Shown here in pieces: positions 4,732 to 8,679 of a stretch of DNA of 12,631 bases. The stretch is from Halomonas sp. GTDB lineage: Bacteria > Pseudomonadota > Gammaproteobacteria > Pseudomonadales > Oleiphilaceae. Location: NCBI GenBank assembly GCA_007135745.1, contig SLIH01000460.1:1-12631 (forward strand). Reading direction: 5' to 3'. Numbering within the stretch: the stretch's first letter is position 1; the number at the start of each line of letters is the position of its first letter. Under the pieces are notes generated by a model that was not told the origin of the DNA, did no database searches, and worked only from the letters and a program-made list of their open reading frames with translations. The translations under genes and the position numbers were made by a program.

Positions 4732-5064
4732 ATGGGTAAAGAAACCCATTCCGCGGAAATGATGGACGAATTCATGCGGCTGACCCTGCGGGATCTGTGC
4801 TTTGACTGCCACATCAGCGCGGAATACGTCATTGAACTGGTCGAGTTCGGCATTCTCAGACCACGCCGGGGACGGGCCCCCAGTGAATGGGTCTTTGCCG
4901 GCAGCGATCTGGTCAGAATCAAGAAGGCGGAACGCCTGCGCCGGGATCTGGATGTCAATCTGCCCGGCGTGGCGCTGTCACTGGATCTGCTTGAGGAAGT
5001 CCGCGAGCTGCGTCGTGCGGTGGAGCAGCTACGCCGCGAGCAGGCACAGCGGGAATCACCCTGA
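4732..5064 (+). CDS. cbpM: CbpM, modulator of CbpA
   Basis: This 110-aa partner protein binds the J domain of CbpA and inhibits both its co-chaperone and DNA-binding activities in E. coli. It has a MerR-like helix-turn-helix fold: a stretch LRDLCFDCHISAEYVIELV, a turn into FGILRPRRG, and a C-terminal leucine-rich helix (about 80-105, LLEEVRELRRAVEQLRRE) suited to coiled-coil packing. Length is close to E. coli CbpM. It starts 3 bases after the cbpA stop. The position beside cbpA decides the call, because other MerR-like proteins look similar. Confidence 0.88.
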   Translation: MGKETHSAEMMDEFMRLTLRDLCFDCHISAEYVIELVEFGILRPRRGRAPSEWVFAGSDLVRIKKAERLRRDLDVNLPGVALSLDLLEEVRELRRAVEQLRREQAQRESP

Positions 5065-5080: not shown

Positions 5081-5323
5081 TCAATCAGACTGCTTATGGC
5101 TGCCGTCACACAGCGGTGGATTCTTCGTCTGCTTGCAACCACAGAAAAAAAGCTCCTTGCTTTCCTCGGGCGTATAGGCCAACGGCGTAATACCGGTCCC
5201 CTTGTGCGAACCATCGCAAAAGGGTTGGCTGGCACTGCGTCCACAGGCACACCACATGACTTTCCTGCCGGCTTCCACCGCTGTTTTATAAGGAGATTTC
5301 TGTGCCACCACGGGTTCCGTCAT
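5081..5323 (-). CDS. Small protein with two CDGSH iron-sulfur motifs
   Basis: This 80-aa protein carries two complete CDGSH signatures. The first has ligands C25, C27, C36 and H40; the second has C61, C63, C72 and H76. Each 3-Cys-1-His set should hold one redox-active, acid-labile [2Fe-2S] cluster. Such tandem-motif, soluble, single-chain proteins resemble the mitochondrial CISD3/MiNT type rather than the membrane-anchored single-motif mitoNEET. No membrane segment is present. The start has an AGGAG site 7-8 bases upstream on the minus strand. It is the last gene of the minus-strand operon, 35 bases after the patatin stop, and ends 16 bases from the end of convergent cbpM. Biochemical role and partner are unknown; electron transfer or cluster transfer is inferred from the family. 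Confidence 0.92.
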   Translation of the reverse strand: MTEPVVAQKSPYKTAVEAGRKVMWCACGRSASQPFCDGSHKGTGITPLAYTPEESKELFFCGCKQTKNPPLCDGSHKQSD

Positions 5324-5358
5324 TGTCTGCTCTCCTGATCACATCGTTGGTTTCTGAA

Positions 5359-6459
5359 TCAACCGCGCAGTTCCGACAGCGGCCGGACTTCATCCACAAA
5401 GCGCTCCCTGTCCACCTGCTCCAGGAAATACTCACCCAGACGGCGGCTCTCCTGCATGGCACGATGCCAATGACGCTCGCGGGTTTCGTCATCACCACTG
5501 TAACGGACAAAATCCTTACGGTCAGGTAACTGACCATCCGGCAGCTCGGCCAGATATTCGTGCGAAGGCGCCACCAGCAGCAGGTCGGCAAGCCGCTCGG
5601 GGTCTCCCCCGCGCCAGGGCAGCAGTTTGTCGAACCAGCCAGGCACAATGCGTTCGCGGAAATGAGGGAAAAGCACAATGCCGTCCGTCTGGTAAGGCAG
5701 ATCCAGGTGATAATCGGTCAGCCCACCGTCCCGGAATGCCCGCCCCGGGACCCCCGGAATTTCATTCACGGCCTCCATCACCGTCGGAATGGAACCGGAT
5801 GCCAGCAGGGTGGCGCGCAGATTTTCAGGGGTCAGCATTGCATAGCGTGTGGGCAGATCCTCTCTGTCACCCAGCGGTGGAGTGTCGCGCGGATCATGGA
5901 CGATAATCCGCTCAAAGCCATTGGCGACAAACCGCCGGTTGACTGTATTGGCCGCAATCACCCCGGCCAGCCCCAGAGCCAGTGCCGGATGGGTATCGGC
6001 CTGCAGGGAACGCCAGCGGCTCGCATTCACCACCACATTGAGACGGAACTGTGACTGGGTCAGGACATGCTCATCCTGATCCTGCAACAGATCGGACAGC
6101 ATGGCTTCGCATTTGCGGCTGACCTCGGCCATGCTGATTCCCTTGGGAAAACGCTGCTGCGTATAGAGTTCCGAGAGGCGCCGGATGCCAGCCACCGGAT
6201 CCGGCAGACAGAGACTGGCCGAGCGCCAGCTGCCGATAGAAGCGCCAATCAGGTGCCGCTCTCGGGGGGCCCGAGGCAACCAGTCTCCGAAAAGCGCCTC
6301 GTCCAGTCCCACCAGCCCCAATGCCTTGGGCCCACCGGCCGCACCGGCGATAACGCTGACATCCTCCGGCCTCAGGCCATGTTCTCGGAGCCGGGCCAAC
6401 GCGCGCTCTCCGGCATAGAATCTCAGCGGTGGGGACTGATCCTTTAATGGCATCGCCAT
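5359..6459 (-). CDS. Patatin-like phospholipase / acyl hydrolase
   Basis: This 366-aa protein has the patatin catalytic layout: a glycine-rich oxyanion element GAAGGPKAL (39-47), the nucleophile elbow G-A-S74-I-G, and the catalytic Asp in the D244-G-G motif. Together these make a Ser-Asp dyad that would hydrolyse acyl esters of phospholipids or neutral lipids. There is no signal peptide or clear membrane helix, so action in the cytoplasm or at the inner membrane surface is likely; it does not look like a secreted ExoU-type toxin. The start at 6459 lies 6 bases after the stop of the upstream hydrolase, with GGAG about 9 bases ahead, and a second Met lies two codons in. The tight spacing implies co-expression and a joint pathway. 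The substrate cannot be read from the sequence. Confidence 0.88.
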   Translation of the reverse strand: MAMPLKDQSPPLRFYAGERALARLREHGLRPEDVSVIAGAAGGPKALGLVGLDEALFGDWLPRAPRERHLIGASIGSWRSASLCLPDPVAGIRRLSELYTQQRFPKGISMAEVSRKCEAMLSDLLQDQDEHVLTQSQFRLNVVVNASRWRSLQADTHPALALGLAGVIAANTVNRRFVANGFERIIVHDPRDTPPLGDREDLPTRYAMLTPENLRATLLASGSIPTVMEAVNEIPGVPGRAFRDGGLTDYHLDLPYQTDGIVLFPHFRERIVPGWFDKLLPWRGGDPERLADLLLVAPSHEYLAELPDGQLPDRKDFVRYSGDDETRERHWHRAMQESRRLGEYFLEQVDRERFVDEVRPLSELRG

Positions 6460-6465
6460 GTTTGA

Positions 6466-7404
6466 TTACTCCGTCGTGTCACCATCCGCCACACGTTGAC
6501 GGAAACGCAGGTAATGCTCAACGGTGGTCTGGGGATCTTCGAAATGGGGATAGTGCCCAATGCCTTCCAGTAGAACGGTATCAGGCCGGGCGACGAGCTG
6601 GCGATATCGCTCAAGCATGGCGCGCCCGGACACCGGATCCGCCGCCCCCCAGATCAGCCTCACCGGCCGCCTGGCCTGTTGCAGTGCACCCACCCACCGA
6701 TGACGGTGAATACGACGTTCTTCCATGTAGTGGATCAGCTGGTGGATGATGCCGCGGCCATTGTTGTAGGTCAGAAGCTGCCAGAGATCATCCAGCTCCT
6801 CTAGTGTCGGCTGGCTGTTACGTCCAAAAATCTTACAGAGATTGTATTCCAAGACCCGACGGGTCTGCACCCGACTCACCAGAGGTCCCAGCGGTCCAAG
6901 CAGCAGGTTCTGAAGCACAATGGGGCGATGCACTTCCGGAAACAGGGCACCGTTCAGAAAACAGACGCTGTCAATGACGAACGGAAGCTCGCCCTCCTGA
7001 TCCCGGGCCAGTAGCTCCTGAGCCACCGAGCCACCATAGTCGTGAGCCCAGATGTGTACCCGCTCAATCCCCATCTCCGCCAGTAAGCCCTGCTGCAGGT
7101 CCGCCTGATCGATAATGGAATAGGGATAGCCCACCGGCTTGTCGGAGAAGCCGAAACCCAGCATATCCGTGGCCAGGACACGGTAACGGCTGACCAGGGG
7201 CTGCCAGACGCAATGCCAATCCCAGCTGGCCGTGGGAAAACCGTGCAGCAGAAGGACGACTTCGCCTTCCCCTTCAAGGCGGGTGAAGATCGCATTCTCG
7301 CCATAGCGAAACCACCGCCCAGTATCCTGCCAGCACTGCAGGCCATGGGATTCCGTCACGGTCACACCCTCCCTGGATGGTGAATAGTCCCTTTTCAGTG
7401 TCAT
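6466..7404 (-). CDS. Alpha/beta hydrolase, MEST/PEG1-like (Asp nucleophile)
   Basis: This 312-aa alpha/beta hydrolase belongs to the epoxide hydrolase / haloalkane dehalogenase side of the fold. The oxyanion motif HGFP is at 54-57. The nucleophile elbow is H-D122-Y-G-G with Asp in place of Ser. The likely acid is D256 in WGAADP and the base is H284 in GHYPHFEDP. The stretches LGFGFSDKP, HDYG, FPEVHRP and RRWVGAL closely resemble the vertebrate imprinted-gene product MEST/PEG1 as I remember it, so the nearest named family is MEST-like hydrolase. The start at 7404 is chosen over an upstream Met at 7494 because AGGAG sits 7 bases before it. It is the first gene of the operon, with a TyrR-type operator 36 bases upstream. 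The reaction is unknown; ester or epoxide hydrolysis is inferred. Confidence 0.87.
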   Translation of the reverse strand: MTLKRDYSPSREGVTVTESHGLQCWQDTGRWFRYGENAIFTRLEGEGEVVLLLHGFPTASWDWHCVWQPLVSRYRVLATDMLGFGFSDKPVGYPYSIIDQADLQQGLLAEMGIERVHIWAHDYGGSVAQELLARDQEGELPFVIDSVCFLNGALFPEVHRPIVLQNLLLGPLGPLVSRVQTRRVLEYNLCKIFGRNSQPTLEELDDLWQLLTYNNGRGIIHQLIHYMEERRIHRHRWVGALQQARRPVRLIWGAADPVSGRAMLERYRQLVARPDTVLLEGIGHYPHFEDPQTTVEHYLRFRQRVADGDTTE

Positions 7405-7424
7405 TAAATGGCTCCTTGCGATCC

Positions 7425-7430
7425 AGTATA
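7425..7430 (-). promoter_or_regulatory. Candidate -10 element for the hydrolase-patatin-CDGSH operon
   Basis: On the minus strand this reads TATACT, 5/6 to the -10 consensus and 20 bases before the start codon at 7404. The matching -35 position (about 7448-7453) is poor (AGTTTT) and falls inside the TyrR-type palindrome at 7441-7458. The promoter may thus need an activator or be blocked by the regulator. Confidence 0.4.
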
Positions 7431-7440
7431 ACTCCGAGAG

Positions 7441-7685: not shown

Positions 7686-7868
7686 ATGAAGAGGTGTGAC
7701 AGCGTGGATGCCATCAATCGTCTCAACAGGCTTTACGAACTGAAGCAGGCTCAGCTTGAGAAAGCTGGCGAGCTGCTGGATTCGGAAACCCTGCTGCACC
7801 GTGTGCTCGCGGCCGAAGCCGAAGCCATCAGCGAGGCGTTGCACGAAGAGCGCAACCGCCTCAGCTGA
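7686..7868 (+). CDS. Small conserved-looking helical protein of unknown function
   Basis: This 60-aa protein begins MKRCDSVDAINRLNRLYELK and is predicted almost wholly alpha-helical, with heptad-like leucines and alternating charges (LYELKQAQLEKAGELL, then LLHRVLAAEAEAISEAL). It contains a single Cys at position 4. The start at 7686 has an AGGTG site 8 bases upstream; an in-frame ATG at 7635 would add 17 residues but lacks such a site. Regular third-position GC and the ribosome site suggest a true gene. It stands alone between the divergent hydrolase operon and folE. I do not recognise the family. The shape would suit a small dimeric coiled-coil adaptor. Confidence 0.6.
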   Translation: MKRCDSVDAINRLNRLYELKQAQLEKAGELLDSETLLHRVLAAEAEAISEALHEERNRLS

Positions 7869-8112: not shown

Positions 8113-8679
8113 ATGAACGACAATCTGGAGAAAATGGCCGCCGACTACCGCGATATCCTGGCGCAACTCGGGGAAGACCCGGATCGCGAAGGCCTTGCGG
8201 ATACGCCGATGCGCGCGGCCAAGGCTCTGCAATTCCTCACCCAGGGCTATCAGCAGGACATCAACACGGTCGTCAATGGAGCCATCTTCGAGTCCTCAAC
8301 CGATGAAATGGTCGTTGTCCAGGATATCGAGCTCTATTCCCTGTGCGAGCACCATATGCTTCCGTTTATCGGTAAGTGCCACCTCGCCTACCTTCCCAAC
8401 GGGCGTGTCCTGGGCCTTTCCAAGTGCGCCCGGATCGTGGACATGTACGCCCGTCGCCTGCAGATCCAGGAAACACTGACCCGGCAGATTGCCGAGGCCA
8501 TACAGGAGGCCACCCACGCCAAGGGCGTAGCAGTGGTCATCGAAGCCAATCACATGTGCATGATGATGCGCGGCGTGGAGAAACAGAACTCCACCATGAA
8601 AACCTCGGTAATGCTGGGCGCCTTCCGTGAATCCCAGGCCACACGCATGGAATTCCTGACGCTGATCAACCGTAAATAG
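8113..8679 (+). CDS. folE: GTP cyclohydrolase I, zinc-dependent type (FolE)
   Basis: FolE converts GTP to 7,8-dihydroneopterin triphosphate, the first step of folate and monapterin synthesis, in the cytoplasm as a homodecamer. At 188 aa it is shorter than the 222-aa E. coli enzyme but keeps the whole catalytic core. The zinc ligands are C78 and H81 in LCEHH and C149 in NHMCMMMRG; the Cys-to-Cys distance of 71 equals that in E. coli (110 and 181). The SxxEHHMLPF and KQNSTMKTS segments are typical. This is the zinc-requiring type IA enzyme, not the FolE2/FolEB backup. A purine stretch (GAGAGAGA) near 8095-8105 acts as ribosome site. folX follows 10 bases after the stop, so the pair feeds dihydromonapterin. 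Confidence 0.96.

Follow-up and report, generated by a model that had tools for sequence, protein, structure and literature searches.

The DNA analysed here (the window, 12,631 bases) is an entire contig (G000:C146) from a 68% complete genome. Three intact genes follow one another on its minus strand and code, in the direction of transcription, for a MEST-like alpha/beta hydrolase, a predicted patatin-fold acyl hydrolase and a small iron-sulfur protein with two CDGSH motifs (Table 1). The gaps between them measure 6 and 35 bases, as the sequence-only reading of this DNA had claimed, and each gene is preceded by a Shine-Dalgarno-like site. The AAGGAG 7 bases upstream favoured 7404 as the start of the hydrolase gene over 7494, where a longer frame begins. 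The GGAG of the patatin gene falls in the final codons of the upstream hydrolase gene, and translational coupling between the two is possible in the window. The small gaps and the Shine-Dalgarno-like sites make an operon probable at this locus.

Table 1. Genes and sequence features of the window
Feature	Position	Strand	Remarks
Fur-family gene	left of the three genes	plus	best NCBIfam model Zur, 114.3 bits, below the cut-off of 167
ABC ATPase and ABC-3 permease genes	left of the three genes	plus	read as znuC and znuB
PAS gene and cbpA-like gene	left of the three genes	plus	
cbpM-like gene (MerR_2)	4732..5064	plus	NCBIfam CbpM, 59.7 bits, below the cut-off of 138
Dual-CDGSH (type 6 / class II CISD) iron-sulfur protein	5081..5323	minus	80 aa
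AGGAG, Shine-Dalgarno-like	5332..5336	minus	8 bases ahead of CDGSH ATG
Patatin-fold acyl hydrolase (predicted)	5359..6459	minus	366 aa
GGAG, Shine-Dalgarno-like	6469..6472	minus	9 bases ahead of patatin ATG
MEST-like alpha/beta hydrolase	6466..7404	minus	312 aa
AAGGAG, Shine-Dalgarno-like	7412..7417	minus	7 bases ahead of hydrolase ATG
Small ORF ahead of folE	7689-7868	divergent from hydrolase	about 60 aa
folE, GTP cyclohydrolase I	8113..8679	plus	Pfam, 253.4 bits
FolB-family gene (folX-like)	right of the three genes	divergent	

The cbpM-like gene is convergent with the CDGSH gene and ends 16 bases from its stop codon. At the other side, the small ORF ahead of folE had no match in Pfam. Rfam gave no match at gathering score for an RNA element in the window. 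A perfect palindrome, GTTATACTATAAC, occupies positions 265-277, directly before the longest Zur-like frame (280), and shows 0 mismatches to the Zur consensus; it likely serves autoregulation of the Zur-like gene. Control of the three genes by Zur was considered and rejected, the only upstream site (7420-7432) having three mismatches. The window holds 10 sites with three mismatches against a mean of 5.3 in shuffled sequences, and at least 10 were found in 20 of 200 shuffles.

The hydrolase scores 92.9 bits against Pfam PF00561 and carries His-Asp at the nucleophile elbow, as expected of this kind of alpha/beta hydrolase. The catalytic candidates are His54 (HGFP), Asp122 (HDYG), the predicted nucleophile, Asp256 and His284, and the nucleophilic Asp is kept in 26 of 27 sequences. 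At one locus (L056, genome G019), HNYG replaces HDYG, which puts Asn at the nucleophile position; the hydrolase and patatin genes share 4 bases there. Its nearest known kin are MEST/PEG1 and the Asp-nucleophile alpha/beta hydrolases, such as epoxide hydrolases and dehalogenases. The best relatives of solved structure mostly align with about positions 15-140 of the 291 of the hydrolase profile; 8ooh and 4opm were matched nearly end to end. A single-sequence structure model (pLDDT 43) was set aside. The blocks HGFP, GFGFSDKP, HDYG, NGxxFPExHxP and RWVGAL are presumably MEST-like, and the putative likeness to MEST/PEG1 is one of these motif blocks. In PMC5481029, MEST is given Ser-His-Asp at 145-147 and a resemblance to epoxide hydrolases. 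The window's enzyme would attack an ester or an epoxide via Asp122, His284 and Asp256.

The second protein has the motifs of a patatin-like phospholipase: the Gly-rich oxyanion motif GAAGGPK at residues 39-45, the GxSxG serine Ser74 (GASIG) and the aspartate Asp244 of a DGG/DGA motif (here DGG). Ser74, Gly76 and Asp244 are conserved in 49 of 49 sequences, Gly42 in 46 of 47 and Lys45 in 47 of 47. The structure model (pLDDT 90.9) has the patatin fold, with patatin-fold enzymes in the top rows of both Foldseek and VIA-align. Its score against Pfam PF01734 (26.3 bits) misses the cut-off of 27.7, which makes it divergent on that measure and is why it is named patatin-fold here. CapE and CapV were the top fold matches, and identity to CapE, CapV, PlpD and plant patatin is 12-17% over the structural alignments. 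The block PGWFDKLLPWR (residues 273-283), of which 10 of 11 columns are invariant in 15 sequences, sets the group of the window's patatin apart from these four. A lipid would most likely be de-acylated through the Ser74-Asp244 dyad.

Residues 24-50, the surroundings of the oxyanion loop (window 6310-6387 for residues 25-50), resemble TAL-effector repeats in single-sequence comparison, with E down to 4.5e-10. A profile of 15 patatin sequences had no match in the PDB at E 0.001, and the TAL-repeat matches are therefore read as a chance likeness and not as kinship. An anti-phage effector, in line with the CapE and CapV matches, was rejected: none of the three proteins had a PADLOC match. When 10 neighbour genes were scanned in the same way (rnb left out), only the znuC-like ATPase was matched (best mad3, 102.5 bits), which is attributed to the common ABC ATPase fold. 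Locus L068 (genome G008) has a patatin homologue (36%) and, 111 bases downstream in the same orientation, a distinct alpha/beta hydrolase (27%).

The CDGSH protein consists of two zf-CDGSH stretches, with motifs about 20 residues apart and no other domain, the organization of the type 6 CISD described in PMC3174974. It matches 3tbn, a type 6 CISD of known structure (phmmer E 1.4e-35), in a near full-length alignment and CISD3 6avj (phmmer E 5.8e-20). Like MmCISD of Magnetospirillum magneticum and human CISD3, it carries both motifs on one short chain, each with three Cys and one His as in type 6 CISD, and its gene position after a patatin gene is the sole difference seen. The cluster ligand residues are present in the sequence, and the protein would bind two [2Fe-2S] clusters and serve in the transfer of electrons or clusters. 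The families proposed in the sequence-only reading were thereby recovered for the patatin and the CISD3-type protein, and, on motifs, for the putatively MEST-like hydrolase. Of 59 CDGSH matches in the survey below, 10 fall in open frames longer than 500 aa and are likely fusions; type 5 CISD are fusions to a glutamate synthase domain according to PMC3174974, and the long-frame matches would fit this type.

Each gene was searched for in the same 97 genomes (the window included), 61 from the window's family and 36 from outside it. Matches were obtained in 64 genomes for the patatin, counting homologues of 34-40% identity, in 51 for the CDGSH protein, counting likely fusions, and in 55 for the hydrolase (E 1e-30). 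Within the family, 46 genomes have the hydrolase, 51 the patatin, 39 the CDGSH protein, 38 both hydrolase and patatin, and 31 all three. With distances taken between match ends and not gene ends, hydrolase and patatin lie at most 60 bases apart in 7 of 38 genomes, 150 bases in 8, 3 kb in 33 and 10 kb in 34, and all 34 near cases, across 7 genera, share strand and order. Patatin and CDGSH are at most 150 bases apart in 8 of 34 (three genera) and at most 6 kb apart in 19 of 34. Both gaps measure 150 bases or less in a single one of the 31 genomes with all three genes, namely the window.

Intervening genes were surveyed at 33 hand-picked loci of 32 family genomes with our own gene-calling script, which overlooked some short genes; CDGSH genes were added by tblastn. 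Upstream of the hydrolase and on the opposite strand, folE or its preceding small ORF was found at 26 of 27 loci, the small-ORF family being the divergent neighbour at 13 of these 27. The steadiest neighbour of the hydrolase is thus the divergent folE. Downstream, with domains assigned from one example each, an opposite-strand GGDEF (diguanylate-cyclase) gene follows at 13 of 27 loci, the patatin at 7 and other genes at 7. At some hydrolase-patatin loci a TetR gene sits between the two besides the opposite-strand diguanylate-cyclase gene. The patatin has a co-oriented CDGSH as its next gene in 6 of 27 cases and a facing TetR gene in 8 of 27. A block from folE to znuB-znuC-zur persists in much of the window's family. 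Inside it hydrolase, patatin and in some genomes CDGSH are co-oriented, with other genes entering and leaving between them. Such a constant order with a changing set of intervening genes amounts to synteny and not to a fixed operon. The neighbourhood search proposed with the sequence-only reading thus upheld the order of hydrolase and patatin within the family; the run of three did not recur, and opposite-strand genes often intervene.

All five genomes of the genus to which the window belongs have hydrolase and patatin directly adjacent, as a compact pair that is probably co-transcribed; compact pairs were also found in G016 and G019, from two other genera. In the hydrolase and patatin trees the window groups with its genus and G016, consistent with descent. 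Hydrolase and patatin might constitute a two-enzyme lipid-turnover pair with CDGSH as an unrelated passenger, a reading held to be rather unlikely. It draws on the compact arrangement with the hydrolase always first, on the catalytic residues kept in both families and on the TetR gene facing the patatin, one example of which is weakly PsrA-like (70.7 bits, cut-off 300). PsrA is a fatty-acid regulator. Such a pair could perform, for example, stepwise de-acylation or the removal of acyl or epoxy lipids, functions that are doubtful to the same degree. However, each gene occurs alone within the family (8 of 46 genomes with the hydrolase lack the patatin, and 13 of 51 with the patatin lack the hydrolase), the hydrolase is more often followed by the opposite-strand GGDEF gene than by the patatin, and no link between the two was seen outside the family, either in the 5 genomes with both or at the 14 named loci described below.

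In the window alone among the genomes examined, the CDGSH gene also follows directly behind the compact hydrolase-patatin pair, so a single transcript over all three genes is likely here. In the other four genomes of the genus CDGSH is located elsewhere; three of them (G001, G002, G004) have only another CDGSH branch, and the nearest relative of the window's protein (78%) belongs to the sister genome G003, on a different contig. A CDGSH tree of 25 rows from the fetched loci, out of the 59 matches, over 78 columns, separates the window from the patatin-adjacent CDGSH genes of other genera without firm support. It suggests that the window's CDGSH may have come to its place separately; an AU test did not reject one origin for the patatin-adjacent genes (p-AU 0.10, or 0.19 with G003 included).

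In the 36 genomes outside the family, no two of the genes were found at most 10 kb apart (0 of 5 for hydrolase and patatin, 0 of 6 for patatin and CDGSH, 0 of 5 for hydrolase and CDGSH), and of the 3 genomes that hold all three genes none has both gaps small. A patatin scan of named genomes gave 14 loci, 38-59% identical, among others in Halopseudomonas, Pseudomonas, Thioalkalivibrio, Vogesella and Haliea; neither hydrolase nor CDGSH was found near any of the 14 (up to 6 kb on each side, less at contig ends), although 3 of them, at 58-59% identity, match family members in closeness. The surroundings of more distant hydrolase homologues (19 stretches of 7-12 kb, 12 from outside the family and 7 from within) contained no patatin, CDGSH or folE at E 1e-5. 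In a sample drawn class-wide (143 genomes, the window and 142 others), the patatin was present in 3 genomes (E 1e-10), the hydrolase in 5 (E 1e-40) and CDGSH in 70 (E 0.001). All three together were found in none of the other 142, and one (G234) has hydrolase and patatin on separate contigs. A compact three-gene operon recurring across lineages was accordingly not seen, either in the family or class-wide.

Presence in the family genomes is uncorrelated for hydrolase and patatin (both in 38 of 61, Fisher p = 1.0) and for patatin and CDGSH (p = 0.47). A correlation is seen for hydrolase with CDGSH (36 of 46 genomes against 3 of 15, p = 9e-5, uncorrected for kinship). This correlation, together with the small gaps, the ribosome-binding-like site of each gene and the CDGSH genes close behind the patatin in three genera, is what speaks for a single module with functions in lipid handling and redox, which the sequence-only reading had suggested. 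The proposal largely fails and is held to be very improbable: small gaps on both sides of the patatin occur in 1 of 31 family genomes with all three genes and in 0 of 3 outside, CDGSH lies elsewhere in the rest of the genus, the presence of patatin and that of CDGSH are uncorrelated, and no other genome of the class-wide sample combines the three. A common pathway for all three is not supported.

Each of the three parts belongs to a known kind, and they most probably lie side by side through local gene order rather than through a common pathway. Against this reading stand the fixed pair order in the 34 near cases, the hydrolase-CDGSH correlation, the p of 0.10 in the origin test and the incomplete genome. 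There may be some selection behind the fixed hydrolase-patatin order and the compact pairs, and local gene order leaves the enzyme pair open and overlaps with it. A more specific proposal, in which the MEST-like hydrolase and then the divergent patatin with its PGWFDKLLPWR block would act on an acyl or epoxy lipid, with translational coupling at the level of the genus and CDGSH as a late recruit of a single lineage, is judged improbable, more so than the pair as such.

A true module would have joined two animal-like proteins of unclear function. The lesson of the locus is that the close spacing of three genes in a single contig argues only weakly for a pathway. If the hydrolase and the patatin did act in sequence, a bacterial strain could serve in the search for the substrate of MEST. 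A MEST-like gene in bacteria, whose catalytic residues are conserved and which is paired with a patatin in one genus, is a tractable place for the hunt for MEST-type substrates.
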